NCBI GenBank assembly: GCA_001804805.1
Contig: MHBH01000062.1
Location: 1-64,000, forward strand
Length of the DNA stretch: 64,000 nt
Direction: 5' to 3'
Origin: Lentisphaerae bacterium GWF2_49_21
GTDB taxonomy: Bacteria > Verrucomicrobiota > Lentisphaeria > Victivallales > GWF2-50-93
Below are positions 15,078-38,747 of this stretch, piece after piece; position 1 is the stretch's first letter; each line of letters opens with the position of its first letter. The position numbers and the translations under genes are program-made. The notes below the pieces were generated by a model. The model was given only the letters and a program-made list of their open reading frames with translations. It had not been told where the DNA came from and did not search any database.

Positions 15078-15465
15078 GTGCGCCAAGCACAGCCAATATA
15101 AATCAGTTGGCAAATCCAACACGGGCAAAGGCTAACTACCAGCCCGGAACTAACCCGGGCGTATGAGAGGGCAACTAATTATGCGAAGCCTTGGGAAAGG
15201 TGTTACATCAGCCACAACGCAAGTGAAGGTATTGAGCCCCGAAATCTCCTTTTGTCGCATTGGGTCAAGGATTTCATGTTCTGGAAGCCAGTATCGGTAC
15301 GCGCGACATGGTGAGCGCGGAACCGGCGTGCCGGGGTCTAAGTCCGTAGTGGGTGGACGAACGGTCTATATTGGAACTTGGGAGAACCGCGGTGCTCCGT
15401 ATAGAAGCCCCCGAGAAGCCGAAAAGGCGGGGAGGGGGTATGGTGCCGTGGTAGTCGGACTGACT
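15078..15465 (+). ncRNA. Truncated group II intron, 5' RNA domain fragment
   Basis: The sequence begins with the conserved intron start GTGCG and continues with stem-rich sequence typical of bacterial group II intron domain I, including a GGTCTATATTGGAACTTGGG segment. No reverse transcriptase gene and no domain V/VI are visible; the sequence passes into a transposase remnant, so the 3' part was lost. The right limit is approximate. A second copy of the 5' end occurs at 51052. A long open frame through this region is probably not real protein. Confidence 0.55.
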
Positions 15466-15486
15466 CGTATTAGAGACAAGGAATTT

Positions 15487-16203
15487 ATGCCGAAAGTTGT
15501 CATAGTCAAAACGGCGGGAACGCATGATTCGACGGAGGCGAAGGAGCTTTGCGCGGATGTGAAGTCAGGGGAGATCGTGGTTTTCGACAAGGCATATATT
15601 GACTACAAGCACCTTCATTCCATGACGGAGCGCGGAATCTCCTGGGTGAGCCGCAGCAAGGCCAATATGAAGTACAAGACTGTGGGTGTGGGACAGCATA
15701 AAAAGGCAAAGGGTAAAATCATACGGGATGAAGTCATTGTCCTGACATGCAAGAACGCAAGGGAAAACTATCCGGAGAAGCTGCGCCTTGTGGAGGCCTG
15801 GGTGGAAATTAATGGCAAAGAGAAAAGGATGACTTTCATCACCAATAATTTTACTTGGGCGGCAAGCTCAGTTACTGATTTGTACAGGTCCCGCTGGGGC
15901 ATTGAAGTGTTCTTCAAGGAACTCAAACAGACATTCCAAATCGCCGACTTTATCGGCTACAACGAGAACGCCGTCAAATGGCAAATCTGGACAGCACTGC
16001 TTACATATATTCTTTTGCGGTTTATAGCTTTTCAAAGCAAATGGGGACATTCATTTTTCAGATTGTTTACAATGTTGAGAGGTGTTCTCTGGAGCTGCCT
16101 CAACATGTTCAGCGTCCTCGAATGCTATGGGACAGCAGGAGGCACTATAAGGCTTCGCGCCGCTCCTGAGCAAAGCTATTTGCCGGGGTTCGCCCCGATA
16201 TGA
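15487..16203 (+). pseudogene. Truncated IS4-family transposase (C-terminal part)
   Basis: About 238 residues of a DDE transposase of the IS4 type. It retains the second catalytic aspartate (VFDKAYIDY) and the glutamate block YRSRWGIEVFFKELKQTF, but the N-terminal part with the first aspartate is missing. It joins group II intron sequence near 15465, so a deletion or nested insertion removed the 5' half. It should be inactive. It resembles the intact transposase at 43669 in its second half but is clearly diverged. Confidence 0.8.
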
Positions 16204-20280: not shown

Positions 20281-20329
20281 ATGAATATTAAGGAGGTACG
20301 CACGTGAATATTATGGAGACACTCACATG
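20281..20329 (+). promoter_or_regulatory. Triplicated 23-bp translation-start region
   Basis: Start-like triplets ATGAATATT (20281), GTGAATATT (20304) and ATGAATAGA (20327) are spaced by exactly 23 bp, each later one preceded by a GGAG-containing leader. The first two frames are not in phase with the gene. It appears to be a tandem duplication of the ribosome-binding region of the CDF-SPFH gene. Confidence 0.6.
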
Positions 20330-21856
20330 AATAGAAAACAGCAGACGGTACTCATAACCCTTGGCGCGAACGGCATTCTAATCGCGTTGCGGTTTATCCT
20401 GGCTTTTGTTTCCGGGAGCATTGCGCTGAAGGCCAATGCCTGGCATTCGGTCGCTGACTTGGTGGTGATGGGAATCGTCTATCTGGGCCTGCTTTTTGCA
20501 ACCCGGCAGGACGAGCGCTACAAGTGGCTCATCGGTCGCACGGAGAACATCGTCGCCATAATCGTGGCTTTGTTTATTTCGTATATGGGATTTGAACTCT
20601 TCTATGAGGCGATTGCCGGCGAGGCGATAGAATTGCGGTACGTGGCATGGGCCTCGTTGGGGGCATTCCTTGGAGTTTGCATCACCTATTTCATGGGACG
20701 CTATCTGCTATATGTCGGAAATCAGGAGAAGTCCCCGAGCCTGATCGCCGCCGGCTATCACGCGCGGATGGACATGCTCTGCTCCAGCGCCGTCCTCATC
20801 GGACTTACTGGTTCGATCTTTGGAATGACTGGGTTGGACAAGGTCGCCGCAACGATCGTTGTAATCTTTATCTTTGTGGCTTCCCTCGAGATCCTCATGG
20901 TAAACGTGAAGGCGATGCGGTCTAATGCCGATGTGGTGCCTGACGAAGGATTCGAACATGGACATAGCAGGATCGGCTGGCTTGTAACTGTCGGTTTGTT
21001 GCTCGTGGCAGGTTATTTCGCCTCAGGCCTCTATTCCGTGCGTCCCGGCGAGCAGGCCGTCGTACGGCAATTTGGCAGGATTTCCAGCGTAGCGGCGGTG
21101 CCTGGACTTCATTACCGCTGGCCATATCCGGTGGAGCGTGTTGACATCGTACCTGCCGCACGCGTGCAGCTTGTAACCACAGATCAAAAGTTACTGTTGA
21201 CTGGTGATGAGAACCTCATCGAAGTCGCCATTACGGTACACTACCGGGTCAAGGACGCGGCCCTGTTCCTCCTCAACGTCACTGATCCGGAACAGGTCGT
21301 AAGGAACGCGGCCGAATCGAGCGTCCGCTCAGTGGTCGGACGCAACGCTATCGATCTTCTTCTTGCCGAGGGAAGGAGTAAGCTCCAGGAGGAAACCCAA
21401 CAGGCGATCAGCATAGAATTAGACAGCAACCGGGTCGGACTGGAAGTGACAGGCGTCCTCATTCGCTACCTCGCTCCGCCTGACGAAGTCAAGGCCGCCT
21501 TCCAGGACGTCGCCAGTGCCCGGGAAGACCGGATCACCTACATCAACGAGGGGCATTCCTTCTACAATGCACTGGTTCCGAAAGCCAGGGGAGAGGCGGC
21601 GGAGAATCTTCTCTCGGCAGCTGCGTACAAGACAGAGAAAATCGACAGCGCAGAAGGAGAAGCGACACGTTTCCTGAAGAGGACCGAAGAATATGCGCAG
21701 GCGCGTGAGATTACCCGGACTCGTCTGTATCTTGAAGCGATGGAGAAGGTGCTTCCGGGCGTAAAGAAGTGCCTGATGGGAGCAGGCACGGAAATTGATG
21801 GGACTGACCTGTGGTTCACGGGACCATATGCGGAAGCCCCATTTATAAAGAAATAA
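20327..21856 (+). CDS. Cation diffusion facilitator core fused to HflK-like SPFH domain
   Basis: A 509-residue inner-membrane fusion. Residues 1-195 are a CDF-type membrane core with six hydrophobic helices; the metal-site pairs H40xxxD44 (TM2) and H145xxxD149 (TM5) are both present, as in zinc-type CDF proteins. The normal CDF cytosolic C-terminal domain is absent. Instead a further helix (about 217-234) leads into an SPFH/band-7 domain (SVRPGEQAVVRQFG onward) and a helical region ending near 495, as in HflK. I infer a zinc or cadmium/iron exporter tied to an SPFH scaffold. HflC- and HflK-like genes follow immediately. Confidence 0.9.
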   Translation: MNRKQQTVLITLGANGILIALRFILAFVSGSIALKANAWHSVADLVVMGIVYLGLLFATRQDERYKWLIGRTENIVAIIVALFISYMGFELFYEAIAGEAIELRYVAWASLGAFLGVCITYFMGRYLLYVGNQEKSPSLIAAGYHARMDMLCSSAVLIGLTGSIFGMTGLDKVAATIVVIFIFVASLEILMVNVKAMRSNADVVPDEGFEHGHSRIGWLVTVGLLLVAGYFASGLYSVRPGEQAVVRQFGRISSVAAVPGLHYRWPYPVERVDIVPAARVQLVTTDQKLLLTGDENLIEVAITVHYRVKDAALFLLNVTDPEQVVRNAAESSVRSVVGRNAIDLLLAEGRSKLQEETQQAISIELDSNRVGLEVTGVLIRYLAPPDEVKAAFQDVASAREDRITYINEGHSFYNALVPKARGEAAENLLSAAAYKTEKIDSAEGEATRFLKRTEEYAQAREITRTRLYLEAMEKVLPGVKKCLMGAGTEIDGTDLWFTGPYAEAPFIKK

Positions 21857-21894
21857 TATATAAATTCAAACAGAAATTTAAGGAGAATATGACT

Positions 21895-22836
21895 ATGACG
21901 ACAAGGTACGGATGGGTGAAATGGGTGGTGATACTTGGATTCCTTACGGTGGTTCTCGTTGTAAGCAATCTCGTCATGTTCGTCGTCGACACGACGGAGT
22001 ATGCAGTTGTCACCCAGTTTGGAAGAGTTGTGCAGACGATACTGAAGCCAGGGCTTTACTGGAAACTGCCTGAACCGATCCAGACCGTGCAGCGCTACGA
22101 CAACCGCATGCAGATCTATGAGGCAGGACAGGTTGAGTTCCTTACCAAGGACAAGAAAAGCGTTCTCACGGACTTTTACGGCTCATGGAAGATCAAGGAC
22201 CCGCTGGAGTTTATGAAAGCGGTCAAAGACAAGGTCGGTGCGGAGGGAAGGCTTTCGGACGTATTCAGCTCCACGCTCGGTATGCAGTTCGGGCGTTTCG
22301 ACCTGAGCGACCTGGTAAACACAAATGCAGCACAGATGAAACTGCACGACATGCTGACCCAGGTTACACTGGAATGCAACAGGAAGGCCGCCGAGTACGG
22401 GATCGAGGTCGTCAATGTCGAGCTGCGGACTCTGAACTTCCCGGAAAAGAACAGGCTTTCCGTGTTCGGTCGGATGAAAGCGGAACGCGAACAGATCGCC
22501 CGCAAGTACAGATCCGAGGGCAGCGAGGAGGCTGCAAAGCTCCGCGCCGAGGCCAAGAAGGAGGAAAAGCAGATTCTTTCCCAGGCATATAAGAATGCCG
22601 AGATACTCCGTGGAGAAGGTGATGCGGAGTCGATCCGCGTCTATGCCCAGGCATTCCAGAAAGATCCTGAGTTCTACAAGTTTGTACGAACTCTGGCGGT
22701 GTACGACAAAATCATCGACGACAAGACCACGGTTGTGTTCCCAGCCGATTCCGACCTTCTGCGGTTCCTCGGACAAAAACAACAGTCCGCCGCAAAGCCT
22801 GAAACCTCAATGAAGGAGAAGGATGGTGTAAAATGA
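21895..22836 (+). CDS. HflC-like SPFH protein
   Basis: A 313-residue SPFH/band-7 protein with one N-terminal membrane helix (about 10-31), an SPFH domain (TEYAVVTQFGRVVQ onward) and a C-terminal coiled-coil region rich in RAEAKKEE-type heptads. It is closest in layout to HflC, which with HflK forms a large cage around the FtsH protease in E. coli. ATG 21895 is preferred over ATG 21889 because AGGAG then lies 9 bp upstream. It overlaps the next gene by 4 bp (ATGA). Confidence 0.92.
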   Translation: MTTRYGWVKWVVILGFLTVVLVVSNLVMFVVDTTEYAVVTQFGRVVQTILKPGLYWKLPEPIQTVQRYDNRMQIYEAGQVEFLTKDKKSVLTDFYGSWKIKDPLEFMKAVKDKVGAEGRLSDVFSSTLGMQFGRFDLSDLVNTNAAQMKLHDMLTQVTLECNRKAAEYGIEVVNVELRTLNFPEKNRLSVFGRMKAEREQIARKYRSEGSEEAAKLRAEAKKEEKQILSQAYKNAEILRGEGDAESIRVYAQAFQKDPEFYKFVRTLAVYDKIIDDKTTVVFPADSDLLRFLGQKQQSAAKPETSMKEKDGVK

Positions 22837-23816
22837 ATGAACAACCCGGAAATCCGCTGGACGACATTACGGAAGCGTTCCGGCACCTCCACCTCGGGAT
22901 CGTGCTGCCATCGGTTCTGCTGGGGATTCTATGTATCTACGGCATGACCGGCTTCTATATTGTCAAGCCAGGCGAACAGGGCGTTGTCCGCCGCTTCGGA
23001 CAGGTCATTCGCACTACTGAGCCAGGTGCGCACTATCGATTGCCCCGGCCAATTGAATCCGTCGAGGTTGTGACGGTCGGCGAGGTGCGCCGTGCAGAGA
23101 TCGGGATGTTGCTGCCGGAGCATAGGCACGCTTCCTTCATGCCTGAGAAAATCCAACTCCTGACAGGGGACGAGAACTTGATCAACGTAGAGGCGGTCGT
23201 CCAGTACAAGGTCAAGGACGCGGCGCGATACCTCTATAGCGTTAACTTCAGCGAGGAACGATTATTGCACAACGCCGTAGTGGCGGCCCTGGTGGAACTC
23301 ATTGGCCAAGTCGGGGTGGATGATATCCTGACCACTGAAAAGGTGGCGGCCCAAGGAAAAATACTCTGGAAGGCGCAGAAAGTACTGGACTTATACGACA
23401 GCGGACTCCAGATAACCGGATTCAACATCAAGGGCATTGTCCCACCTACTGAGGTGGCCGACGCTTTTCGCGACGTGATAACGGCCCGGGTGGACAAGGA
23501 ACAGTCCATTAATCAAGCAAAAGGATATAGCAACAGCGTAATCCCCGAAGCCAGAGGAAAGGCGCGGGAGCGGGTCAGTGAAGCGGAGGGTTATCGTACC
23601 GAAGTCGTCAATCGGGCAAAGGGTGACGCGATGCGCTTCGAGTCGATGTTGACCGAGTACCAGAAGGACGTCAAGATTTACTCGGAAGATGTAACACGCT
23701 ATCGCCTTTACCTGGAAACGATGGAAACGGTGCTCCCTCGCGTGAGCAAGTATGTATTAGGGGAGGAAACCAAGGGGAAGAGCAAGGTCAACCTAAAGTT
23801 CTTCAACCGCCAATAG
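22833..23816 (+). CDS. HflK-like SPFH protein
   Basis: A 327-residue SPFH protein with one N-terminal helix (about 22-43), then YIVKPGEQGVVRRFGQV, the HflK-type segment LLTGDENLINVEAVVQYKVKD, and a coiled-coil region with repeated glutamates. It completes the K-C-K trio with the two preceding genes. FtsH, the usual partner, is not in the window. ATG 22833 overlaps the HflC stop codon. Confidence 0.92.
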   Translation: MNEQPGNPLDDITEAFRHLHLGIVLPSVLLGILCIYGMTGFYIVKPGEQGVVRRFGQVIRTTEPGAHYRLPRPIESVEVVTVGEVRRAEIGMLLPEHRHASFMPEKIQLLTGDENLINVEAVVQYKVKDAARYLYSVNFSEERLLHNAVVAALVELIGQVGVDDILTTEKVAAQGKILWKAQKVLDLYDSGLQITGFNIKGIVPPTEVADAFRDVITARVDKEQSINQAKGYSNSVIPEARGKARERVSEAEGYRTEVVNRAKGDAMRFESMLTEYQKDVKIYSEDVTRYRLYLETMETVLPRVSKYVLGEETKGKSKVNLKFFNRQ

Positions 23817-24293: not shown

Positions 24294-24521
24294 TCCGCAC
24301 CGGAGAATGAGACAGCCGCGTTTCCACAGTGAACTGCAGACGGTATGGGAGCATTCCTTCTGCCACTGTGGGTCGCAGCGTTCTTAGAATAATACATGAC
24401 ATCCAGGAGGGAAACGGAGGTTATAGTTTTTCTCGCAAGGGGAAATGAAGCAATCGGCATTAATAAATTTTCTTCATCATATAATATTGAGGAAGAATAT
24501 AACATTGCAGAAAGGAATCTA

Positions 24522-24827
24522 ATGAAAGAAAAGCATCAGATAGAGAAAGAAAAACAACTATCATTGAACCAGGATACGATCAGGAGCAAAATTTTCATCT
24601 GCCCAGCCAAGGAAGATGCGCAGAAAGTATTTCTTGCAGGAACCTTCAACAATTGGGCGCTGATGCCAATGACAAGGCTAAAGAGCTGTTTCCATGCAAT
24701 TCTAAGACTTAAGCCTGGTGAATATCAGTACAAATTCGTTGTTGACGGAAAATGGCTTGAAGATCCTGAGGCCAAATCCGTGCAGAATGTCTTTGGTACT
24801 GCAAATAGCATCGTCTCGGTTGATTGA
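24522..24827 (+). CDS. CBM48 (AMPK-type) domain protein
   Basis: About 101 residues: a short charged N-terminus and a single CBM48 domain with VFLAGTFNNWALMPM and EYQYKFVVDGKW motifs, ending near its last strand. It has no enzyme domain. ATG 24522 has AAGGA upstream; an alternative ATG at 24396 would add 42 residues with no clear role. It is a second CBM48-only gene besides 2197, but without a membrane helix. Its link to the SPFH operon is positional. Confidence 0.78.
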   Translation: MKEKHQIEKEKQLSLNQDTIRSKIFICPAKEDAQKVFLAGTFNNWALMPMTRLKSCFHAILRLKPGEYQYKFVVDGKWLEDPEAKSVQNVFGTANSIVSVD

Positions 24828-25104: not shown

Positions 25105-26220
25105 GTGAAAAGGGAACTGTATCTTTTAACTGCATTGTTATTCTCTTTCTCCTCGTTCAACATTGTGAATGCCGAAGAAAAAGATTCGAAAAGAACTCCG
25201 GCCCCCAGGCTGAAATCGGAAACATTTTTCAAGCCCGATGAGGGCGCACCGGAGAAAACGAATACCGAGCCTCTGGCATTCCTCCCTGAAATTGTCGCCA
25301 AAATAGGGGATGAAAAGATAACAAAGGCTGACATCGAGGCCGAGTTCAAACCAATAATCTCTATGATGAAGGGAAATGGACAGTTAGACAGTATTCCTCC
25401 TGAAACCTGGAAGAAGGAAGTCATAGGCGGAATCAACGGCATGATCTCAACGAAGATGCTAACCAAGCTCGCGGAGGAAAACGGCTACAAGCCTGATATG
25501 GCAAGGACGGAAGAGGAATTCAAGAAAATGTCAGCCAAAATCCCTTCGGAACAACTTGCCGAGATGATGGCAAAACAGGGGATGACTGAGGAAACCGTTA
25601 AGAAAAGGATCGGAATCAGCCTCACAATCCAGAAATGGATCGAGGAAAAAGTAAGCAGCGACATAAAAATCTCCGATGCTGATGTCGAAAAATTCTACAA
25701 GGAAAACCAGGATCGTTTCAAGAGGCCCGAGTCTGTGCGCGCCTCCCATATCCTCATAACACCTGAAGAATTAGACGCTGATAAAGCCAAGTCCATGTCA
25801 GACGAGGAAAAGAAAAAAACAGCAGATGAACAGAAGCAGAAAGCCCTTAAAAAGGCCCAGGAAATACTTGCCAAGCTCAAGAACGGTGAAGATTTTGCGA
25901 AACTCGCATCTGAAAACAGCTCCTGCCCCAGCAAGGCAAATGGCGGCGATCTTGGGACATTTGCAAGAGGCAATATGGTCGCAGAATTCGAAAAGGCTGC
26001 GTTCTCCCTCAAGCCGGGCGATTTGAGCGATGTCGTTGAAAGCAAGTTTGGATACCACATAATCAAGGTTTCTGAAAAAAACAATGCCGAAACGGTTTCA
26101 CTGAGGGATGCGCAAATCTCCATCTCCGAAGACATGAAGAATATAAAGACTTCTGAGGTTGTTCGGAATCTGATTGAGGCCGAGAAGAAGAAGGAAAATG
26201 TCGAAATATTTGTTAATTGA
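25105..26220 (+). CDS. PrsA/SurA-like parvulin peptidyl-prolyl isomerase
   Basis: A 371-residue exported chaperone with a signal peptide (about 1-23), an N-terminal SurA-like helical domain and a complete PPIC/parvulin domain at about 210-330 with VRASHILI, SSCPSKANGGDLGTF and VVESKFGYHIIKV. It should act on outer-membrane or secreted proteins. The start is GTG 25105 with AAGGA 9 bp upstream. It is the second parvulin gene in this cluster and may support folding of exported cluster proteins. Confidence 0.92.
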   Translation: MKRELYLLTALLFSFSSFNIVNAEEKDSKRTPAPRLKSETFFKPDEGAPEKTNTEPLAFLPEIVAKIGDEKITKADIEAEFKPIISMMKGNGQLDSIPPETWKKEVIGGINGMISTKMLTKLAEENGYKPDMARTEEEFKKMSAKIPSEQLAEMMAKQGMTEETVKKRIGISLTIQKWIEEKVSSDIKISDADVEKFYKENQDRFKRPESVRASHILITPEELDADKAKSMSDEEKKKTADEQKQKALKKAQEILAKLKNGEDFAKLASENSSCPSKANGGDLGTFARGNMVAEFEKAAFSLKPGDLSDVVESKFGYHIIKVSEKNNAETVSLRDAQISISEDMKNIKTSEVVRNLIEAEKKKENVEIFVN

Positions 26221-26372: not shown

Positions 26373-28586
26373 ATGAAACAAATTATGAACACAAATGGAA
26401 AATTCAAGATCATAGGAATGGATTGCGTGGAGGAAGTCAACGCGCTCAGGGGAACGGTGGGCAAACTGGCCGGTGTCTCCAGCCTCGACTTCAACCTTAT
26501 TGATGGAACTATGACTGTCCAGTATGACGCCAGCTTAGTCGACAAGGACGCTATCAGGAACGCAATACAGGAGGCAGGACTGAAGGGCGAGTCTCTTGAT
26601 GAGAAGCAACCTGACGGAGTTGTCAAGGCATCTTGGTGGCAAATACGCGGACGAACAGTGATGTGCTGGAGTTCCGTTGCTTTGCTGAGCATGGGCTTTA
26701 TAACTCATGCTTTTCTGCATGGAGGCCTTATTCATGCGTTGATCAGCGGCGAGGGTATGGCGCGACACGGATTTCCTTTACCAGTCATACTCTTCTACGT
26801 AGCAGCGGTTGTGACCGGGGGTTGGTTTGTTTTTCCAAAGGCCTGGATGTCCTTGCTGCGATTTCGGGCGGACATGAATCTGCTGATGACTATTGCAGTA
26901 ATAGGCGCGATGATCATTGGCCAATGGTTTGAAGCTGGTACTGTGGCTTTTCTCTTTGCTCTGTCCCAACTGCTGGAATCGTGGAGCGTGAGCCGCGCCC
27001 GCAGAGCGATTCACGCTCTGGTAAGACTGTCACCTCCGATGGCGCGCTACATCTGCCCCCATCACGGGGACATCGAGGAAAAACCGGTCGGGGAAGTCCT
27101 CGTAGGCTCAACGGTCATAGTGCGCCCCGGCGAACGAATACCACTGGACGGAGTCGTTACCAAAGGCCGAACTGCAGTAAACCAGGCACCTATCACTGGT
27201 GAATCCATGTCGGTTGTCAAAAAGGAAGGGGATGAGCTGTTCGCCGGAACGATCAATGAGCATGGATCTATTGAGTTTAGAGTCACTAAGCCCGCCGCCG
27301 ACACCACGCTTGCGCGAATCATCCGCATGGTGGAAGAGTCACAGTCACGCCGCGCGCCGATCGAGCAATGGGTGGAGAAATTTGCACGCTATTATACGCC
27401 GGCCGTGATTGTTATAGCCATGCTGGTGGCTATCGTCCCACCCATGTTCGGGGGTGAATGGAACCGCTGGTTCTACGAGGCGCTGGTCATGCTGGTTATC
27501 GCCTGTCCCTGCGCACTTGTGATTTCAACACCAGTCAGCATTGTGGCGGCCCTCACTGCGGCATCCAAGGTAGGCGTGTTGATCAAGGGAGGTGCGTTCC
27601 TTGAGGCGGTTGGTCGTGTGCGCGTTTTTGCCTTGGACAAGACCGGCACTCTAACTACGGGACTCCCGGAGATACAGATGATCGTGCCTTTTAACGGCCA
27701 CACCCAAGACGAACTTCTTGCCCGTGCTGCAGCGCTGGAGACGCACAGCGAGCATCCGCTGGCAAAGGCTGTATTGAGAAAGGCCCATCATATGGGGAAG
27801 ATTACCCCATTGGTGGCTCATGACTTCCGTGCCCTCAAAGGCCGCGGTGCCGAAGCGATGATTGATGGTCGCCTTTTCTGGGTGGGAAGCCACCGGCTTT
27901 TGCATGAAAAAGGCATCGAGGAGTCAGAAGTCCACGAACATGCGCAACGTATGGAAGACGCAGGACATTCCGTTATTGCTGTGGGGAATGACCGACATGT
28001 CTGCGGGCTTATCAGCGTGGCCGATTCCATACGCCCCGAAGCGCCAGACCTGATCCGCCAGCTGAAGGTAGCGGGAATATTGCACGTAGTAATGCTGACA
28101 GGGGACAACCGAGGCACGGCGGAAGCGGTAGGCCATGCGATTGGCGGCATAGATGAAGTGCGTGCGGAACTGCTGCCCGAAGACAAGATGCAGGCGATTC
28201 AGGAGATCGCGCAGAAACACGGGTCTGTCGCAATGGTAGGTGATGGAATCAACGATGCACCGGCTCTTGCCACGGCCACCATCGGAATTGCGATGGGTGC
28301 CGCCGGAACCGATGCTGCGATTGAAACGGCTGACATTGCCCTCATGTCCGATGACCTGTCACATCTTCCCTGGTTGGTACAGCATGCGCGGCGTACCTTG
28401 TACATTATCCGGCAAAACATTATGTTTGCCTTGAGCGTGAAAGCCGGGTTCATGGTGCTGGCCTTGATGCAGATTGCAACACTGTGGATGGCTATTGCAG
28501 CCGACACGGGCGCATCCCTGCTGGTGATCTTCAACGCGCTACGCCTATTGAAAAGCAGTTGTAAGGAAAAGAATGAAGGATTATGA
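26373..28586 (+). CDS. P1B-type ATPase, Zn/Cd/Pb/Co export type (ZntA-like)
   Basis: A 737-residue heavy-metal pump. An N-terminal HMA-like domain (about 11-70) keeps GMDCVEEV but lacks the second cysteine of the CxxC site. Then come the usual membrane helices, the CPC motif at 378-380, the phosphorylated aspartate D422 in DKTGTLT, an HP-type motif SEHPLAK and GDGINDAP. This combination is typical of ZntA-type Zn(II)/Cd(II)/Pb(II) exporters. It follows the chaperone gene by 152 bp. It is the metal pump of the plus-strand SPFH cluster; a similar pump ends the minus-strand cluster. Confidence 0.93.
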   Translation: MKQIMNTNGKFKIIGMDCVEEVNALRGTVGKLAGVSSLDFNLIDGTMTVQYDASLVDKDAIRNAIQEAGLKGESLDEKQPDGVVKASWWQIRGRTVMCWSSVALLSMGFITHAFLHGGLIHALISGEGMARHGFPLPVILFYVAAVVTGGWFVFPKAWMSLLRFRADMNLLMTIAVIGAMIIGQWFEAGTVAFLFALSQLLESWSVSRARRAIHALVRLSPPMARYICPHHGDIEEKPVGEVLVGSTVIVRPGERIPLDGVVTKGRTAVNQAPITGESMSVVKKEGDELFAGTINEHGSIEFRVTKPAADTTLARIIRMVEESQSRRAPIEQWVEKFARYYTPAVIVIAMLVAIVPPMFGGEWNRWFYEALVMLVIACPCALVISTPVSIVAALTAASKVGVLIKGGAFLEAVGRVRVFALDKTGTLTTGLPEIQMIVPFNGHTQDELLARAAALETHSEHPLAKAVLRKAHHMGKITPLVAHDFRALKGRGAEAMIDGRLFWVGSHRLLHEKGIEESEVHEHAQRMEDAGHSVIAVGNDRHVCGLISVADSIRPEAPDLIRQLKVAGILHVVMLTGDNRGTAEAVGHAIGGIDEVRAELLPEDKMQAIQEIAQKHGSVAMVGDGINDAPALATATIGIAMGAAGTDAAIETADIALMSDDLSHLPWLVQHARRTLYIIRQNIMFALSVKAGFMVLALMQIATLWMAIAADTGASLLVIFNALRLLKSSCKEKNEGL

Positions 28587-28873: not shown

Positions 28874-30238
28874 ATGTTTTTTATGAAACTCATATGTCTG
28901 ATATGTTGTTTGAGTGGTTTATTCGTATTGCCGTCTGCGAATTCAGCGGAGAAAGGCCCCCGTGAAACTCCAGTGGTAAAAGCAGTCTCAGAGGTCATGC
29001 CGTCCGTAGTCAATATTGGTACTGAACGGATTGTAAGCACGTCATTCTCTCCCTGGAGGGCGGATCCGTTCGAGGGACTCTTCCGCGATTATTTTACGGA
29101 GCAAGGAGAATCCAGGAACACTTCACTTGGCAGTGGCAGCATCATCGATTCCAACGGACTTGTACTGACTAATTCCCACGTTGTCCACAGGGCTTCCAAA
29201 ATAACAGTTACTCTGGAAAACGGTGCCCAGTACTTTGCAAAGGAAATCGCCAGCGATGATGTCAACGATCTTGCCCTAATCAAGATTGAAGGACTACCGG
29301 AATCTGCAAATCTCAAGATTATGAAGTTTGCCAGACCGGATGATCTCATGCTTGGTGAGACGGTTGTGGCACTGGGAAATCCATTCGGATTAGGCCACAG
29401 TATTTCACAGGGGATTCTCAGCGCGGTCAAAAGAAAGGCGGTCTATGAAGGGAACATTATTTTTTCAGACATATTGCAGACCGATGCTGCAATAAATCCG
29501 GGGAACAGCGGTGGTCCTCTTATAAATATCAATGCTGAAATGATAGGTGTTAATGTTGCGATTTTCAAGGAAGCCCAGGGAATTGGTTTTGCAATCCCCC
29601 TGAAACGTATTGAATGCGTATTGGCAAAATGGCTGATTCCTGAACGCTTTGGAGATGTTTCCCTAGGCATAATACCAGGAGAAAGAATGAATGAGAAGAC
29701 CGCTATGATTGAATTTTTTGTAGAGGAAATCATTCCTAACAGTCCGGCTTTTAAATCTGGTATGAAATCCGGAACTCAAATTACTGAATTCAACGGAAAA
29801 AGAATAGATAATCTTCTACAGTTGAGCAAAATACTCTACAAGGTCGGGGTTTCCGACTCCGTGTCTTTTAAAACAGCGGAAGGAAGGATTTATTCCTTTA
29901 AAGCGGAGAAAACAAAATTTGTTGATGGTGCTGAAATGGCAAAAGTACGCCTTGGCCTGGGACTGCAGGTGCTTAATACCCAGCTTGCCAAAGCACTTGA
30001 TTATCCCTTCGAGGGGGGGCTGATTATAAGCGATCTCCCAGCTGGGATTGAAAATGTTGAGAGGGGTGATATTATTGTCCGTATTGGCGATATTCCTGTC
30101 AATGCTATTGAAGATGTTTCCCGCGCCCTCCAAGGGAAACGCTATGGCGATGCAGTTCCCGCAATCTTTATTTCCGTAGTCAAGAAACACGATAGATATT
30201 TCCTAGTCAAAAAAGTTGCTACTCTAAAAGTGAAATAA
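28874..30238 (+). CDS. HtrA/DegP-like protease
   Basis: A 454-residue periplasmic serine protease with a signal peptide (about 1-24), a trypsin-like domain with triad H102 (TNSHVV), D132 (VNDLAL) and S212 (GNSGGPL), and two PDZ-like regions (about 245-325 and 340-440). This matches DegP/DegQ-type quality-control proteases. ATG 28874 is chosen, though ATG 28883 is close by. The 287 bp between it and the P-type ATPase show no convincing gene. Confidence 0.92.
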   Translation: MFFMKLICLICCLSGLFVLPSANSAEKGPRETPVVKAVSEVMPSVVNIGTERIVSTSFSPWRADPFEGLFRDYFTEQGESRNTSLGSGSIIDSNGLVLTNSHVVHRASKITVTLENGAQYFAKEIASDDVNDLALIKIEGLPESANLKIMKFARPDDLMLGETVVALGNPFGLGHSISQGILSAVKRKAVYEGNIIFSDILQTDAAINPGNSGGPLININAEMIGVNVAIFKEAQGIGFAIPLKRIECVLAKWLIPERFGDVSLGIIPGERMNEKTAMIEFFVEEIIPNSPAFKSGMKSGTQITEFNGKRIDNLLQLSKILYKVGVSDSVSFKTAEGRIYSFKAEKTKFVDGAEMAKVRLGLGLQVLNTQLAKALDYPFEGGLIISDLPAGIENVERGDIIVRIGDIPVNAIEDVSRALQGKRYGDAVPAIFISVVKKHDRYFLVKKVATLKVK

Positions 30239-30353: not shown

Positions 30354-31535
30354 TTGCAGAATCCCATATCTGGAAAAGAATCTGTTATCAAGGCTGTCGG
30401 CCTTTCAAAGGAGTTCCGTGATTTCTGGAACCGTCCAAAGGCCAAGGCGGTGAATGATATCGACTTTGAAGTCTATGAGGGCGAGGTTCTTGGTCTTCTA
30501 GGTCCGAACGGATCTGGGAAATCAACTACCATTAAGATGCTTCTCGGCCTTCTCTATCCTACCGCCGGCTCGATCACCGTATTCGGGGAATCGCCGAGGA
30601 GCGTGCGCACAAAGATGAGGATAGGATATCTTCCCGAGGAGTCGTACCTCTACAAATATCTTACCGCAATGGAGACTTTGGATTTTTTCGGCGCGCTTTT
30701 CAATCTTTCGGCGTTGGAGCGCCGGAGCAGGAGCGAACAGCTTCTGGAAATGGTCGGTCTCAGCCATGTAAGGAACCGCCCGGTCGGCGAATTTTCAAAG
30801 GGAATGGCGCGCAGGATAGGACTTGCCCAGGCGATGATAAATGATCCGGACCTCCTTATACTCGATGAACCGACTTCCGGCCTTGACCCGATCGGCTGCA
30901 AGGAGATCAAGGACCTGATAACGTTCCTCCAGAAGCGCGGCAAGACCGTCATTGTGAGCAGTCATCTTCTCGGCGATGTCGAGGACATATGCAACAGGGT
31001 GTTGATACTTTATGGCGGAATAATCAGGGCTTCCGGTACGCTTGACGAGCTTCTCACGGTTTCAAGCTCGAGCCGCATAACGACTCCGCTGCTTGAACCG
31101 GGGATTACCGAAAGACTGGTGAAAATACTCAGGGACAGCCTCAAGGGTGAACAGTTTGTCATAGATCATCCGAGACGGTCGCTTGAAGATTTCTTCCTCG
31201 ATGTGGTCAACAAGGCGAGAAGCGAAAGCGTGAAGACCTATGGAGCAGAAGGCGGAGGCGAGATCGCCGGTTATCTCAAGGAGGAATCACGCGACGTCCT
31301 CAAGGATCTCATGTCCGGCCAGAAGGAGAAGGAACCTGAAATGCCCAGGATTGAAAAGGCGGAAGGGAAAGAGGATGATGGAGCGGCCAAGTCAAGGGAG
31401 ACGATTGACAAGCTTGTCACGCATGCAACCGAGGAGAAGAAGCAGATGCCCGAGCTCAAGCCGCCGGAGAACCGCGAAGAGGTCAACAAGAAGCTTTCCC
31501 ATCTCGTTTCCAAAAAAGATGGCAAGGACAGATAA
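30354..31535 (+). CDS. ABC-2 type exporter, ATP-binding protein with C-terminal extension
   Basis: A 393-residue ABC ATPase with Walker A GPNGSGKS (about 53-60), the signature FSKGMARR, Walker B LLILDEPTSG and H-loop SSHLL. After the roughly 300-residue ATPase it carries a charged extension of about 90 residues rich in Lys, Glu and Arg with no recognised domain. The start is TTG 30354, with AGGAG 8 bp upstream. It forms an operon with the permease and the TPR-like protein that follow. The substrate is unknown. Confidence 0.92.
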   Translation: MQNPISGKESVIKAVGLSKEFRDFWNRPKAKAVNDIDFEVYEGEVLGLLGPNGSGKSTTIKMLLGLLYPTAGSITVFGESPRSVRTKMRIGYLPEESYLYKYLTAMETLDFFGALFNLSALERRSRSEQLLEMVGLSHVRNRPVGEFSKGMARRIGLAQAMINDPDLLILDEPTSGLDPIGCKEIKDLITFLQKRGKTVIVSSHLLGDVEDICNRVLILYGGIIRASGTLDELLTVSSSSRITTPLLEPGITERLVKILRDSLKGEQFVIDHPRRSLEDFFLDVVNKARSESVKTYGAEGGGEIAGYLKEESRDVLKDLMSGQKEKEPEMPRIEKAEGKEDDGAAKSRETIDKLVTHATEEKKQMPELKPPENREEVNKKLSHLVSKKDGKDR

Positions 31536-31556
31536 ATCCACAACTGGTGCTGAACG

Positions 31557-33017
31557 ATGATTTCTTTATGGGCGATTATCAAGCTCACGTGCAGGGCTTC
31601 TATAAGATCGCACATCTTCCATCTGCTTCTTTTCGTGCTCCTGCTGGCAATCCTGATCCTTCCCAATACTGTTCTTGGCGACGGTACGGCTTCCGGTTTC
31701 ATCCAGGTTTCGCTGAAATACTGCCTCGGAGTGGTGGGATTCATACTTTCGCTTTCAACGATATGGGTGGGCTGTTTCGTCCTTTCCAATGATCTTGAAA
31801 GCTATCAGATACACATGGTCTTCACAAAGCCCATTTCGAGGATGAAGGTCTGGATCGGCAAATGGCTCGGAGTTGTACTCATCCACGGTATCCTGCTTCT
31901 TGTTTCTTCTGGAATTGTCTATGGCTTTATCCTCCTGCAGTTCTCCTGGAAGAATTTTACAAAGGAGGAGAAGACGAGAATAGAGAATGAAGTCCTTGTT
32001 GGAAGAAAGGTGTATCTTCCCGATCTTCCCGACATAGATGCCAAGGTCAAGGCCGAATTCCAGAAGAGGGTCGCCTATCTGAAGACGGTGCAGGCGGAGA
32101 ATTTCCAGAACCTGACCAATACGGAAAAAAGGACAATGCTTGGCGACCTCCGCAAGCAGATTGTGGCCCTGCACGGAGAAGTCAAGCCGGGCCCGTCTGG
32201 TTCGAGATACTGGAACTTCAAGGGACTGAACAAGAATATCAAGACCCCCCTCTATTTCAGGTATAGGATGTATGTTGGCAAGATTTCATCAAAGGACCAG
32301 AGGGAGGTGGATGGAATATGGAGCGTGAGGTTTCTTGTTCCTGAAGAAGACGTCAAGGGCAGGAAGCCCGGGGAGGAGATCGCTACAAAGGAAATATTTG
32401 TTCCAAAGTCACAATATCCGGAGAAGCAGATGTGCGGGGTCTTCCACGAGATCGCGCTTATGCCGGCTGTCATTGACAAGGATGGTACGGCCACTATTGT
32501 GTTCACGAATTTCGACAGGGAAAACAAGCCGGTGTATTTCCAGGCTGCCGACGGCCCGAAGCTCCTCATGAACGCGGGACCATTCTGGGAAAACTATCTG
32601 AGGGCTGTCTTCATGATTTTACTGAAGCTCCTGTTCCTTGCCGGACTTGCCTGTACGGCAGGAGGCCTCCTGTCAATGCCCATGGCCGTGTTCGTGGTAT
32701 TTTCATATCTTCTCGTAGGGATATGCGCATCGTATATTATAAACATAGAGTCGGAATTTGGCGACGTTCACGAGCTTGTTCAGTATGAGGCGTGGCATGA
32801 GACTGCCGCCAGAATTGTCAGCCGTTCGATATTATGGGGGATAATTCCGATGCAGAAATTCGAGGTCTCTGACATAGTAGCGAACGGAGAGCTGATTGAA
32901 CTGTCCTTCATGGGCAGGACCGTATTTGACTTTTTCATTTTGAGAGGGGTGCCTATATTCATAATAGGGGTATTGCTTTACAGAAGAAGGGAACTAGGGT
33001 TGATAATAAGAAAATGA
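31557..33017 (+). CDS. ABC-2 type permease with large periplasmic loop
   Basis: A 486-residue membrane protein. Hydrophobic segments cluster at about 8-130 and 350-480, and a large soluble domain (about 140-350) lies between them. This layout occurs in ABC-2 subfamily permeases linked to gliding or exopolysaccharide/gram-negative export, but I cannot assign a substrate. It starts 21 bp after the ATPase stop and its stop overlaps the next start by 4 bp (ATGA), so the proteins are coupled. Confidence 0.88.
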   Translation: MISLWAIIKLTCRASIRSHIFHLLLFVLLLAILILPNTVLGDGTASGFIQVSLKYCLGVVGFILSLSTIWVGCFVLSNDLESYQIHMVFTKPISRMKVWIGKWLGVVLIHGILLLVSSGIVYGFILLQFSWKNFTKEEKTRIENEVLVGRKVYLPDLPDIDAKVKAEFQKRVAYLKTVQAENFQNLTNTEKRTMLGDLRKQIVALHGEVKPGPSGSRYWNFKGLNKNIKTPLYFRYRMYVGKISSKDQREVDGIWSVRFLVPEEDVKGRKPGEEIATKEIFVPKSQYPEKQMCGVFHEIALMPAVIDKDGTATIVFTNFDRENKPVYFQAADGPKLLMNAGPFWENYLRAVFMILLKLLFLAGLACTAGGLLSMPMAVFVVFSYLLVGICASYIINIESEFGDVHELVQYEAWHETAARIVSRSILWGIIPMQKFEVSDIVANGELIELSFMGRTVFDFFILRGVPIFIIGVLLYRRRELGLIIRK

Positions 33018-34634: not shown

Positions 34635-36614
34635 CTATTTCTCTTCCGCATCCTGACGAACTTCGTGCATGGTCAGTTCTTCGCCGGTCCTTACCAGCCT
34701 TGCACTGTTGAAAAGGACTATCGTCGTGCTGACAGTATGAAGGGCGGCCGCCAGAATCGGGTTTAGTAGACCGAAGACCGAGAAGCTTATTCCACCAACT
34801 ATGAAGACAAATCCGATAAGCAGGTTCTGGTTGATTATCTTGCCGGACTCTTTTGCAAGGGTAATGAGAAGCGGTATCCTGCGGAGATCATTTGTCATCA
34901 ACGCGATCGAGGCGCTGTTTATCGCGATGTCGCTGCCGATTGCGCCCATTGCTATTCCAAGATCACCGGCAGCAAGGGCAGGAGCGTCGTTAATTCCGTC
35001 ACCGACGACTGCGACAGTATAATTCTGCTTGACTTCTTTTACATAGGCGACTTTGTCGTCGGGCAGACATTCGGCCCTGACGTTTTCTATGTTGAGTTCC
35101 TTTGAGACGAGATCCGCGACGGTCTTAAGGTCGCCTGTGACCATGGAACACTGCCTCACACCGTCCGCCTTGAGGGATTTGATGGCTTCCTGGGCTTCTT
35201 TTCTTACTGTGTCCCTGAATCCTATCCATCCGATGGCTTTGCCTTGGATGGAAACATAGACGACGCTTATGGCGCCATGGCCGCCCTCGGTCTCCGGATC
35301 TTCGAGGGATGAAATACTTATATTATGTGATTTCAGCCATTCTCCTCTTCCTATCAACGCCTTTTCCCCGTTGATAATAGCCTCGACTCCTTTCCCATGT
35401 ACTTCGGTAAACTTCTCAACGTCGGTAATTTTAACATTGGCTTCTTTTGCAAGGTTCTGCAGGGCTTTTGCCGTAGGATGGTTGCTATGGCTTTCCACGG
35501 ATGCGGCGATCTGCAGGAGGTTGGCCGGATCAATCCCTTCCGCCGGAGCAAGCCTTACAACTGAAAGCGTTCCCTCGGTAAGAGTTCCTGTCTTGTCGAA
35601 GATTACGGCTCTTACTTTTGCAGCGAGTTCGAGGTACGATACGTTCTTGATGAGAATTCCGAGCCTGGCGGCGGCGGCGAGTGCAGCGATGACCGCAGAC
35701 GGGGCCGCAAGTACTAGCGCACACGGGCATGCGGCCACAAGCACGGATATCACATTGCGCATGTTTCCGCCGGAGAACCACCATGCAAGACCAGCTATCA
35801 TCAGGATGGTTGGAATATAATATCCGGCATAACGGTCTATGACCCTTACAACCGGCGGCTTGCTTGTCTCGGCTGCAAGGATCATTTCCTTTACCTTTCC
35901 CAGCGTAGTGTCCTTGCCGACCTTTGTGACTTTCACGTCAATCACGCCAGTAAGGTTCTGTGTTCCTGCGAAGACATCATTCTTCTCCTCTTTTTCAACT
36001 GGGAACGATTCACCGGTGATCGAGGCCTGGTTAACCGTGCTCGTACCTTTGACTATCATGCCGTCAACCGGGAAATTCTCGCCGGGGCGAATCCTGATGA
36101 CATCTCCGATGACGAGTGAAAGCACGTCTACCTCGAGTTCCTGTCCGTCGCTTATCTTCCTTGCCGATCTCGGAGTCAGCTTGATAAGGTCCTCGATGGA
36201 TCTCTGCGCCCCGTGTGCTGTCCTTGACTCGATGATGATCGCGATGAGGAGGAAGAACGAGATGTCTCCGGCGGTCCTGAAGTCTCCTCCCGAGAAAGCC
36301 GCGAGGACTGCGAGTGCCACGAGCTCGTTCATATAGACCTTGCCTTTTGCAAGATCCTTGAACGCGACGATGAATATTGGCAATGCGAGGATTATGGCGC
36401 CGATTATGGCGCTGAGTTCCGCAGTGAAAGTCTGGTCGGGCTGCATCCATACGAGGATATAGGAGTTCAGGATGAAAAAGCCGCCGACAAGGGCGATGCT
36501 GAGCCTGGCAAGGCTCCGACTATGGGGAGCACCTCCGCTCTCGTGATCAGGATCACATCCACAGATCTCGCTGTGGGCGTCAAAAACCTTTTTTCTGGCT
36601 GTCAGTTCGGGCAT
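34635..36614 (-). CDS. P1B-type ATPase without an HMA domain
   Basis: A 659-residue heavy-metal pump with the CPC motif at 296-298, phosphorylated D340 in DKTGTLT, the HP-type motif SNHPTAK and GDGINDAP near residue 550. The N-terminus lacks an HMA domain but has a CGCDPDHES stretch near residues 18-26. The number of helices before the CPC is reduced relative to the plus-strand ATPase, but the core is complete. It is the last gene of the minus-strand SPFH cluster and is 4 bp from the HflK-like gene, so they form one operon. Confidence 0.92.
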   Translation of the reverse strand: MPELTARKKVFDAHSEICGCDPDHESGGAPHSRSLARLSIALVGGFFILNSYILVWMQPDQTFTAELSAIIGAIILALPIFIVAFKDLAKGKVYMNELVALAVLAAFSGGDFRTAGDISFFLLIAIIIESRTAHGAQRSIEDLIKLTPRSARKISDGQELEVDVLSLVIGDVIRIRPGENFPVDGMIVKGTSTVNQASITGESFPVEKEEKNDVFAGTQNLTGVIDVKVTKVGKDTTLGKVKEMILAAETSKPPVVRVIDRYAGYYIPTILMIAGLAWWFSGGNMRNVISVLVAACPCALVLAAPSAVIAALAAAARLGILIKNVSYLELAAKVRAVIFDKTGTLTEGTLSVVRLAPAEGIDPANLLQIAASVESHSNHPTAKALQNLAKEANVKITDVEKFTEVHGKGVEAIINGEKALIGRGEWLKSHNISISSLEDPETEGGHGAISVVYVSIQGKAIGWIGFRDTVRKEAQEAIKSLKADGVRQCSMVTGDLKTVADLVSKELNIENVRAECLPDDKVAYVKEVKQNYTVAVVGDGINDAPALAAGDLGIAMGAIGSDIAINSASIALMTNDLRRIPLLITLAKESGKIINQNLLIGFVFIVGGISFSVFGLLNPILAAALHTVSTTIVLFNSARLVRTGEELTMHEVRQDAEEK

Positions 36615-36617
36615 ATG

Positions 36618-37766
36618 TTATTTCCCTTTTTCCTTGTCTTTGTCATTCTTCTGGTTCCTCGGTTCGGGATTGAGCATTATCCTCACCTCATGAGTGCCGT
36701 TGCTGTCCTCGGGGATTATATATTTATCCTTCACATTCTCCAGCAGTTTTGAAATTGTGTCGTTATAGAGGACGATGAGCACCACCGGATTTTTCCTGTA
36801 TTCTTCAAGGTACTTCTTGAAGGAGATACTGTCAGATTCGATGTCGGCGACGATCTGGATCTTATAGACATTTGCCTCTGCCACTATCCTTGAAGCTTCT
36901 GAATCGGTCTCCCCCTCGACAGTCACTGCATATGCCCTTGCGTTCTCCTTTTCCGTGGAGCACTGCAGTTCGGCGTCAATGACCTCCTGGAATGCCGCAA
37001 CTGTATTAAGGGGCGCAGTGTTGCCTTTCAGTGTGAGATTTTCAACCTTTATCCCGATCTCCCATTTGGCAATTTCGGAAATGAAAAGGTCGTTGACAGC
37101 TGCCCGGTACTCGGAGGATTTTTTGTATAGTGCTGAATCTACCTGCTGGGATGCGGTGACTTTCAGGACTGCATTTTCCAGGATGGACTGGATGAGCGTC
37201 CTCGGACCTCTTGTGCCAATGGCTTTGCCTGTAACAGGATTGCGGATGATTTCATCAAGCCTGGACGGTTCATCGGGGCAGAGGCAGTTCAGATAATATT
37301 TCATAGGATCCGTAATTGTATAGACAAGCTCCCACTCGGTGTGGATTATATTTGCATCTCCGGTAAGCAGATATCCGTCTTTACCTGGGACAAGGGTGGA
37401 GGCTCCGGAAGGTTGCTGCTCCCCTTTTATCGCCTTAACATCGGACCTGTGCCAGTATGTGGCGAGAGTGATGGTCTGCTTGCTGACAGGTATCCTGATG
37501 ATCTTGCTTACCGGATATGGGAAAGACCAGTAGTATCCGGCCTCATGCTTTTCAACGACCTTGCCGAAACGTTCGACAATGACGTTCTCCTGGGGCTTGA
37601 CTTCGTAGTATCCGCCAAAGGTGAAATACCATATTATAAGGAAGGCTATGAAGCATGAAAGCAGGGTGAAGGCGATATGAAGGCTTTTCGTGAGGGAGTC
37701 TATCCCGGCCTTGTAATGCCCGTTGCTTTCAATTTCAGATATATTCTTGTGATCGTGTTCAGTCAT
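36618..37766 (-). CDS. HflK-like SPFH protein (minus-strand cluster)
   Basis: A 382-residue SPFH protein with an N-terminal helix (about 31-51), YEVKPQENVIVERFGKV, an HflK-type LLTGDANIIHTEWELVYTI segment and a C-terminal coiled coil. The cytoplasmic or periplasmic tails are longer than in the plus-strand HflK. It lies between the HflC gene and the P-type ATPase in the same order as the plus-strand cluster's K gene. Confidence 0.92.
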   Translation of the reverse strand: MTEHDHKNISEIESNGHYKAGIDSLTKSLHIAFTLLSCFIAFLIIWYFTFGGYYEVKPQENVIVERFGKVVEKHEAGYYWSFPYPVSKIIRIPVSKQTITLATYWHRSDVKAIKGEQQPSGASTLVPGKDGYLLTGDANIIHTEWELVYTITDPMKYYLNCLCPDEPSRLDEIIRNPVTGKAIGTRGPRTLIQSILENAVLKVTASQQVDSALYKKSSEYRAAVNDLFISEIAKWEIGIKVENLTLKGNTAPLNTVAAFQEVIDAELQCSTEKENARAYAVTVEGETDSEASRIVAEANVYKIQIVADIESDSISFKKYLEEYRKNPVVLIVLYNDTISKLLENVKDKYIIPEDSNGTHEVRIMLNPEPRNQKNDKDKEKGK

Positions 37767-37787
37767 CTTGGTTAACCCTTGAGTGCA

Positions 37788-38744
37788 TCATTTGGATTTT
37801 CCGCTGTCCTTTTTTCCATCCAGAAGCAGTTTCTGGTCGGCCTTCAGCAGATCAAACGGCGCGTAATCGGTATTTAAAATAAGAGTGGTCCTGCTGGGTA
37901 CGATCTTCCGAAGCGACTCGAGCTTCCTCAGGAAAGCGGCAAGTTCCGGCTCATCCTTGAAGGCGGCGTAGAAGGGGGCGGCGGTCGCATCCCCTTCTGC
38001 CTTGATCTGTTTGGCCTGTGCATCGGCCTGGGCCAGCTTGAGCAGGCGGTTGGAGTCCGCCTGATCCATGATTTTCTTCGCTTCGCTCTTCCCCTCGGCA
38101 CGGTACCCCGAGGCGACTACATTCCTTTCGGCTTTCATGCGGTTGAGAACGTTTTCAGTGTTCTTCTCTGGAAGACCGAAGTTCTTGATCCCGACATATT
38201 CTACCTGGATGCCGTATTTCTCAAGGACAAAAGGAGCAATTCCGGCCTTCATCTTATTTTCAATTTCTGTCAGCTTCATTTTCCCGGGATTGGTGTTTAC
38301 AAGCTCATCGAACTTGTATTTTCCAAGGACGGTGGCCTTTTCATTCCTCATCTGGCTGTTTATCTTGTCCTCGGCCTGTGAAATGTCCGGGATTGTCAGG
38401 CTTTTAAAGAGCTTTTCGGCGTCAACTATCTTGTAGACCACGAATATCCCTGCGACAACAGGCTGTCCGTCCGCTGTATAAGTCTCCTCGATTTTTCCGG
38501 TGCTGCCGTCGAAGCAGTGGTATCGGTTGTCGAACTTGTAGATTTTCTGGAAAGGCCATGGCCAGCAGAAATGCAGGCCTGCATCCTTTACGCCGGTAAT
38601 CTTGCCGAGGGTCGTTACAACGGCAAGTTCGGTTGACTTCACCTGGAATGTGAATATCGCGAGAAGGAATATCACTGAAACGATCATGCCGAGAAGCAGC
38701 GTCGGCCAATGCTGCAGCATTTTACTTTTATCTTGTTCATTCAT
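37788..38744 (-). CDS. HflC-like SPFH protein (minus-strand cluster)
   Basis: A 318-residue SPFH protein with one N-terminal helix (about 14-34), TELAVVTTLGKITG, and a C-terminal coiled-coil region with KAERNVVASGYRAEG, typical of HflC. It follows the polytopic SPFH gene by 3 bp and precedes the HflK gene by 21 bp. Together with its neighbours it reproduces the K-C-K order of the plus-strand cluster. Confidence 0.92.
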   Translation of the reverse strand: MNEQDKSKMLQHWPTLLLGMIVSVIFLLAIFTFQVKSTELAVVTTLGKITGVKDAGLHFCWPWPFQKIYKFDNRYHCFDGSTGKIEETYTADGQPVVAGIFVVYKIVDAEKLFKSLTIPDISQAEDKINSQMRNEKATVLGKYKFDELVNTNPGKMKLTEIENKMKAGIAPFVLEKYGIQVEYVGIKNFGLPEKNTENVLNRMKAERNVVASGYRAEGKSEAKKIMDQADSNRLLKLAQADAQAKQIKAEGDATAAPFYAAFKDEPELAAFLRKLESLRKIVPSRTTLILNTDYAPFDLLKADQKLLLDGKKDSGKSK

Positions 38745-38747
38745 AGG

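Follow-up and report, generated by a model that had tools for sequence, protein, structure and literature searches.

The fusion gene and its operon

We analyzed a window of 64,000 nucleotides from the genome of Lentisphaerae bacterium GWF2_49_21 (contig MHBH01000062.1), in which a gene joining a CDF metal transporter core to an SPFH protein stands first in an hflK1-hflC-hflK2 triad (Table 1). The gene is a single open frame with no stop inside. Its N-terminal part matches almost the full Pfam Cation_efflux profile PF01545 (aa 9-195; profile positions 2-195 of 198; E 9.6e-30; 104 bits, above the curated cut-off of 26.6) and the NCBIfam CDF model TIGR01297 (104.6 bits; cut-off, 82.35). The C-terminal part matches Band_7 (PF01145; aa 237-408; E 5.8e-26) and the NCBIfam hflK model TIGR01933 (241 bits; equivalog cut-off, 159.4). 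Residues H40 and D44 (TM2) and H145 and D149 (TM5) align with the CDF A-site positions, and this HD-HD quartet is invariant in all seven CDF-HflK fusions identified (see below). The original prediction of a CDF core with intact metal pairs, fused to an SPFH protein, is therefore confirmed, and its SPFH portion belongs to the HflK type, which forms rings.

That prediction had also let the SPFH domain replace the CDF cytosolic domain, and this stands only in part. A cytoplasmic C-terminal domain (CTD) is usual, though not universal, in CDFs, and a Pfam scan of the fusion gave no match to any CTD model; however, a linker and a seventh transmembrane helix intervene. The CDF core has both termini in the cytosol, as in YiiP, so that the chain beyond TM7, and with it the SPFH domain, is expected in the periplasm, where that of E. 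coli HflK lies. From TM parity and knowledge of the family, the SPFH domain should thus lie on the side opposite to that of a CDF's CTD. The spacing from TM6 to TM7 is only about 25 aa. Within it, H211 and G212 are invariant in the four fusions aligned, and a His is present in the pre-TM7 linker of 6 of the 7 fusions (e.g., EHGHS, EHNHQHG, and DAHGHLH); such histidines could bind metal at the cytosolic face.

TM7 and the SPFH domain align in sequence to residues 80-344 of E. coli HflK (E 7e-50). An AlphaFold2 model built from a five-sequence alignment, of low confidence overall (mean pLDDT 62; pTM 0.38), contains six helices, a further helix at 215-232, and then an SPFH fold. In this low-confidence model, aa 1-201 superimpose on YiiP (Z 22.6; rmsd 2.5 over 197 residues), and aa 227-400 superimpose on E. 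coli HflK (7vhq; Z 16; 171 residues).

Table 1. Coordinates of the two triads, their neighboring genes, and the parts of the fusion protein in the window
Feature	Position	Strand	Evidence
Large peptidyl-prolyl isomerase, two PPIC stretches, N-terminal hydrophobic helix	18280..20268	+	PF13145/PF00639
CDF-HflK1 fusion protein, 509 aa	20327..21856	+	PF01545, PF01145, TIGR01933, homologues
CDF transmembrane core, six TM helices, A-site H40/D44/H145/D149	20327..20941	+	Pfam, alignment, YiiP-like model
Cytosolic linker with conserved His (H211-G212) and TM7 (about aa 216-234)	20942..21034	+	Hydropathy, model helix
SPFH domain and long C-terminal helices	21035..21856	+	Alignment to E. coli HflK, model
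HflC of triad	21892..22836	+	TIGR01932, 211 bits
HflK2 of triad, unfused	22833..23816	+	TIGR01933, 238 bits; outside canonical HflK clade
Second PPIC-type peptidyl-prolyl isomerase	25105..26220	+	PF13616/PF00639
ZntA-like P1B-2 ATPase, CPC and DTGA motifs	26373..28586	+	TIGR01525, PRK11033, motifs
HtrA/DegP-type serine protease	28874..30238	+	TIGR02037 match below its cut-off
P1B ATPase of second triad	34635..36614	-	TIGR01525, PF00122/PF00702
HflK2-like SPFH protein of second triad	36618..37766	-	Tree
HflC-like protein of second triad	37788..38744	-	SPFH similarity; position and HflC match in paralogous/related triads
Class D HflK1, six TM helices and SPFH, 643 aa	38748..40679	-	PF01145 at aa 315-528, TM pattern

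The hflC and second hflK genes overlap by four bases, and the triad is flanked by genes for two peptidyl-prolyl isomerases (PPIases), a P1B-2 ATPase, and an HtrA/DegP-type protease. No ftsH gene is present in this gene cluster; the single full-length FtsH match of the genome is located on another contig. Just ahead of the fusion gene, AAGGAGGT at 20304-20330 precedes a short GTG frame (M N I M E T L T stop), the TGA of which overlaps the fusion ATG and which may represent a coupled leader peptide. The run of metal- and SPFH-related genes also includes a small protein with an AMPK1_CBM (glycogen-binding) match at 24396-24827.

Distribution of CDF-HflK fusions

A search for further fusions led to the identification of six proteins of the same architecture. 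Two of these are 61% (G290) and 60% (G142) identical to that of the window, the former having the same sequence as the fusion of a Victivallaceae MAG (L058); three are from Planctomycetota genomes (G779, G624, and G494); and one, 42% identical, is encoded on a complete conjugative plasmid of Aquibium oceanicum (NZ_CP018172.1), the public record of which names it 'hflK' and leaves the CDF part unmentioned. The seven genomes or plasmids thus span Verrucomicrobiota, Planctomycetota, and Alphaproteobacteria. The recurrence of the fusion in six further genomes or plasmids, one of them a complete record, excludes an undetected assembly join in the frame, and the transport residues are retained throughout these homologues.

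The CDF parts of the seven fusions are 37 to 73% identical to that of the window (the window's own included in the seven). In a tree that also included 23 stand-alone CDFs, drawn from the order of the window and from one related genome, they formed a single clade (100/99), which points to one origin of the CDF-HflK fusion and its later spread between phyla, with a plasmid among the carriers. The fusion is rare, being present in 3 of the 198 genomes of the window's class, and none was found in viral contigs searched with the fusion alignment. A DDE transposase gene lies just upstream of the window's operon (15163-16203), in keeping with the patchy distribution of the operon and the conjugative-plasmid copy elsewhere.

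Gene content around the fusion is also conserved. The large PPIase gene ahead of it is present in L061, L062, L082, and L083, and an HtrA-like gene is found near the triads of L082 and L083. A P1B ATPase adjoins the triad in five of the seven loci, none being nearby at L062 and L088; the neighboring ATPases carry the P1B-2 Zn/Cd motif DTGA in four cases and DMGA in the fifth. The PPIase, triad, and P1B ATPase recur together in G290, G779, and G624; G142 has the PPIase and triad with no P1B ATPase seen, and the triad of G494 (L088) has neither a PPIase nor an ATPase nearby. The Aquibium plasmid has the triad, a PPIase, and a P1B ATPase, and then PCuAC, SCO, DsbB, and thioredoxin-like genes. In the G290 operon, the P1B ATPase gene is followed by one for a 971-aa protein of the M16 (insulinase-type) peptidase family (L061:15632-18547).

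Triads carrying other exporters

We scanned whole genomes of Planctomycetota and Verrucomicrobiota with the HflK family model, found many HflKs within unusually long frames, and examined these loci. Four classes of hflK1-hflC-hflK2 triad were found, complete where the contig allows: (i) class A, the CDF-HflK1 fusions described above (seven loci); (ii) class B, in which an SO_0444-type Cu/Zn permease (ArsP_1) is fused to HflK1 (ten loci at first, with L084 cut at the contig start; e.g., L059 [324 bits; cut-off, 300], L085, L089, and L093); (iii) class C, in which a P1B ATPase is fused to HflK1 (four loci: L087, L098, L099, and L100); and (iv) class D, in which six TM helices without a recognized transporter family precede HflK1 and a separate P1B ATPase is the next gene (HflK1 homologues in L095, L102-L104, and L111-L113). 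In classes B and C, the segment joined to HflK1 is an entire exporter from a known transporter family, and six of the class B loci have a gene for a ZIP zinc transporter directly upstream, ending inside the start of the fusion gene. The CDF fusion is therefore not the only one of its sort: the conserved triad system includes at least three kinds of exporter-HflK fusion, a context that the original prediction had missed. Another long frame, L096, was dropped as a fusion, its N-terminal stretch being a charged, low-complexity extension without a Pfam match.

The class D triad occurs twice in the window's genome, at 34635-40679 on the reverse strand and on contig C36 (L104), and the N-terminal parts of the two HflK1 copies are 85% identical. 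The same gene order is found on plasmids of the cultured species Paraburkholderia sprentiae, Burkholderia ubonensis, and Rhizobium tumorigenes. To see whether the class D six-TM domain might be a decayed CDF, we compared the two profile to profile. The score was 40 for five PVC sequences, against at most 20 for shuffled controls, but this did not prove robust, falling to 19.6 with nine sequences, proteobacterial ones added (shuffles, up to 24.9). Most ATPases of classes C and D have CPC together with, near the C terminus, a His-containing motif (e.g., HQVSS or HTVST) instead of DTGA. Nearly all proteins of classes A, B, and D have an odd number of TM helices ahead of SPFH (6+1, 8+1, and 6+1, respectively), consistent with a periplasmic location of this domain; for the P1B fusions of class C, hydropathy gave no clean counts.

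Several further features were noted at these loci. Between the two triads of the window (30354-34633) lie genes for an ABC ATPase and two other proteins, the first with weak ABC-2 permease similarity, and a close counterpart of the ABC gene at 30354 is found after the class D triad of L102 as well (E 3e-129). One class D HflK1 (L095:3294-5288) contains a long His-Gly-rich run (HSHGHSHRHSHGH...) within the SPFH region, likely a metal-binding loop. In two Verrucomicrobiota genomes, a 1039-aa protein is encoded directly before the P1B-HflK1 fusion (L099:7628-10747 and L100:305-3424), with a Reg_prop beta-propeller match in the L099 copy.

Because long frames had been picked first, the exporter link was retested on loci not selected for fusion, namely, divergent HflK loci with weaker TIGR01933 matches and frames of ordinary length. 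A P1B ATPase beside the SPFH genes, or an SO_0444 fusion, was present in all 16 of these loci, in two of which (L130 and L135) only part of a triad was seen. In contrast, a CDF, SO_0444, ZIP, or P1B gene within about 6 kb was found in 0 of 15 canonical HflK loci, as judged by phmmer with queries from this system, including stand-alone CDFs and two P1B ATPases, so that distant exporters near canonical loci could be missed (Fisher p 3e-9). HflKs from an E. coli plasmid and a Tistrella plasmid proved to belong to an ordinary chromosomal-type hflKC locus and an ordinary hflKC, respectively.

In a tree of 67 HflK SPFH domains, the 16 canonical HflKs formed one clade (100/99), outside which the window's HflK1 falls. 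The HflK2 proteins of classes A to C group together (92/95), whereas the HflK1 domains cluster by exporter class (C, 99/91; D, 100/94; A, weakly, 57/92), with those of class B in two groups. This pattern suggests that the triad is old and that exporters were apparently joined to HflK1 on separate occasions.

A putative SPFH assembly for metal export

On balance, these observations are probably best explained by a CDF exporter core, most likely for Zn, anchored to the HflK1 of an exporter-specialized HflK1-HflC-HflK2 assembly distinct from the canonical FtsH-regulating HflKC. The CDF core would take up metal at the cytosolic side, perhaps first via the His-bearing linker, which leads into TM7 and would thereby bring SPFH to the periplasmic side. 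On that side, the three SPFH proteins HflK1, HflC, and HflK2 would assemble into a dome resembling that of E. coli HflKC, and the exporters would sit in it or at its base and release metal beneath it, near partners in periplasmic folding and quality control (PPIases and HtrA and, on the Aquibium plasmid, also PCuAC, SCO, and DsbA/B-like proteins). The co-operonic P1B-2 ATPase would stand beside the CDF-HflK1 exporter. Clients would be fixed by fusion in classes A to C and by operon linkage in class D. A consideration against this model is that CDFs work as dimers, which may not fit in a ring with alternating HflC.

Zinc is favored as the class A metal from the HD-HD site and the P1B-2 neighbor, and as the class B metal from the SO_0444 family and the ZIP gene; mutant fitness data identify SO_0444 as a protein of copper/zinc efflux (PMC3219624). 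An HD-HD site is no proof of zinc as the class A metal, since an iron-linked clade of CDFs has it too (PMC5703985, PMC6465983). That an SPFH dome can hold transporters has a precedent in stomatin, the domes of which enclose AQP1 and UT-B (PMC12407830). Native E. coli HflKC, however, is not sealed but forms an open, nautilus-like shell (PMC12048511); it is therefore doubtful that metal would really be confined, and a sealed chamber should not be assumed. More tentatively, the triads might constitute a widespread, undescribed metal-export machine, in which a periplasmic SPFH dome serves as a compartment or vestibule for interchangeable exporters (CDF, SO_0444 permease, or P1B ATPase) and the metal is then handed to periplasmic partners or, with a ZIP gene in the operon, taken back.

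A simpler role, which we consider doubtful, is that the fusion only places the exporter in a membrane domain or controls its turnover by FtsH, with metal released to the open periplasm and no role for a dome. HflKC is known to control FtsH proteolysis (PMC12048511), SPFH proteins are known to organize membranes (PMC12005517), the HflK1 part retains the whole HflK core, and one full-length FtsH is encoded elsewhere in the genome. The triads nevertheless lack ftsH in the cluster and fall outside the canonical HflK clade, and a simple membrane-domain address would not obviously require unrelated exporter families to be fused at the same place. Alternatively, the CDF core could act as a sensor, binding metal without transport and switching the SPFH assembly, and thereby proteolysis or the partner ATPase, with export left to the P1B ATPase that adjoins most class A triads. 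The class D arrangement, in which the six-TM domain shows no recognizable transporter family and the ATPase is the next gene, would fit such a role. We regard it as unlikely, given that the full transport site is invariant across 37 to 73% identity, that classes B and C carry complete exporters, and that the part of the CDF that is missing is the regulatory CTD. Finally, an artifact or an accidental, functionless gene fusion, in keeping with the rarity in the class searched, is refuted in practice by the independent copies of the same architecture in seven genomes or plasmids of three phyla, with conserved metal site and operon.

The exporter-specialized assembly that we favor resembles HflK/HflKC (TIGR01933; PDB 7vhq, 7wi3, and 9cz2) in having a single TM helix followed by SPFH and hflC as the next gene; it differs in that an exporter occupies the place of HflK's own N-terminal region and in that the triad has a second hflK, metal-exporter neighbors, and no ftsH link seen. 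The fusion shares with CDF antiporters (YiiP/FieF and ZnT; PF01545) the six-TM core, the HD-HD A-site, and the predicted fold, but instead of a cytoplasmic CTD has a linker into a seventh TM helix and SPFH. The human stomatin domes are similar SPFH domes holding transport proteins, but the association is non-covalent, the SPFH family is another one, and metal export is not involved (PMC12407830). The SO_0444 family Cu/Zn efflux transporter (NF033936; PMC3219624) is fused at the same place of HflK1 in Planctomycetota, often in an operon with a ZIP gene, and is unrelated to CDFs by profile comparison. The stomatin dome lies on the cytosolic side. Among the prokaryotic SPFH subfamilies of Hinderhofer et al. 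2009 (PMC2636767), the nearest is SPFH3 (HflK/C); the main text of that study makes no mention of cation, efflux, or ATPase and hence gives no account of exporter fusions. Our literature search, of partial coverage and thus not proof, found no published description of SPFH-metal exporter fusions or clusters, so that the parts are known while their combination and recurrence appear to be undescribed within the literature searched.

Exporter-HflK fusions and pairings thus point to an apparently undescribed way of organizing metal export. The purpose of SPFH cages has long been an open question, and accounts of HflK usually center on FtsH. With several unrelated exporters attached at the same HflK position, the client of an SPFH assembly is written in the gene, which makes the question testable. 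These comparisons also suggest that many genes annotated just as HflK or 'protease modulator' may belong to metal homeostasis.
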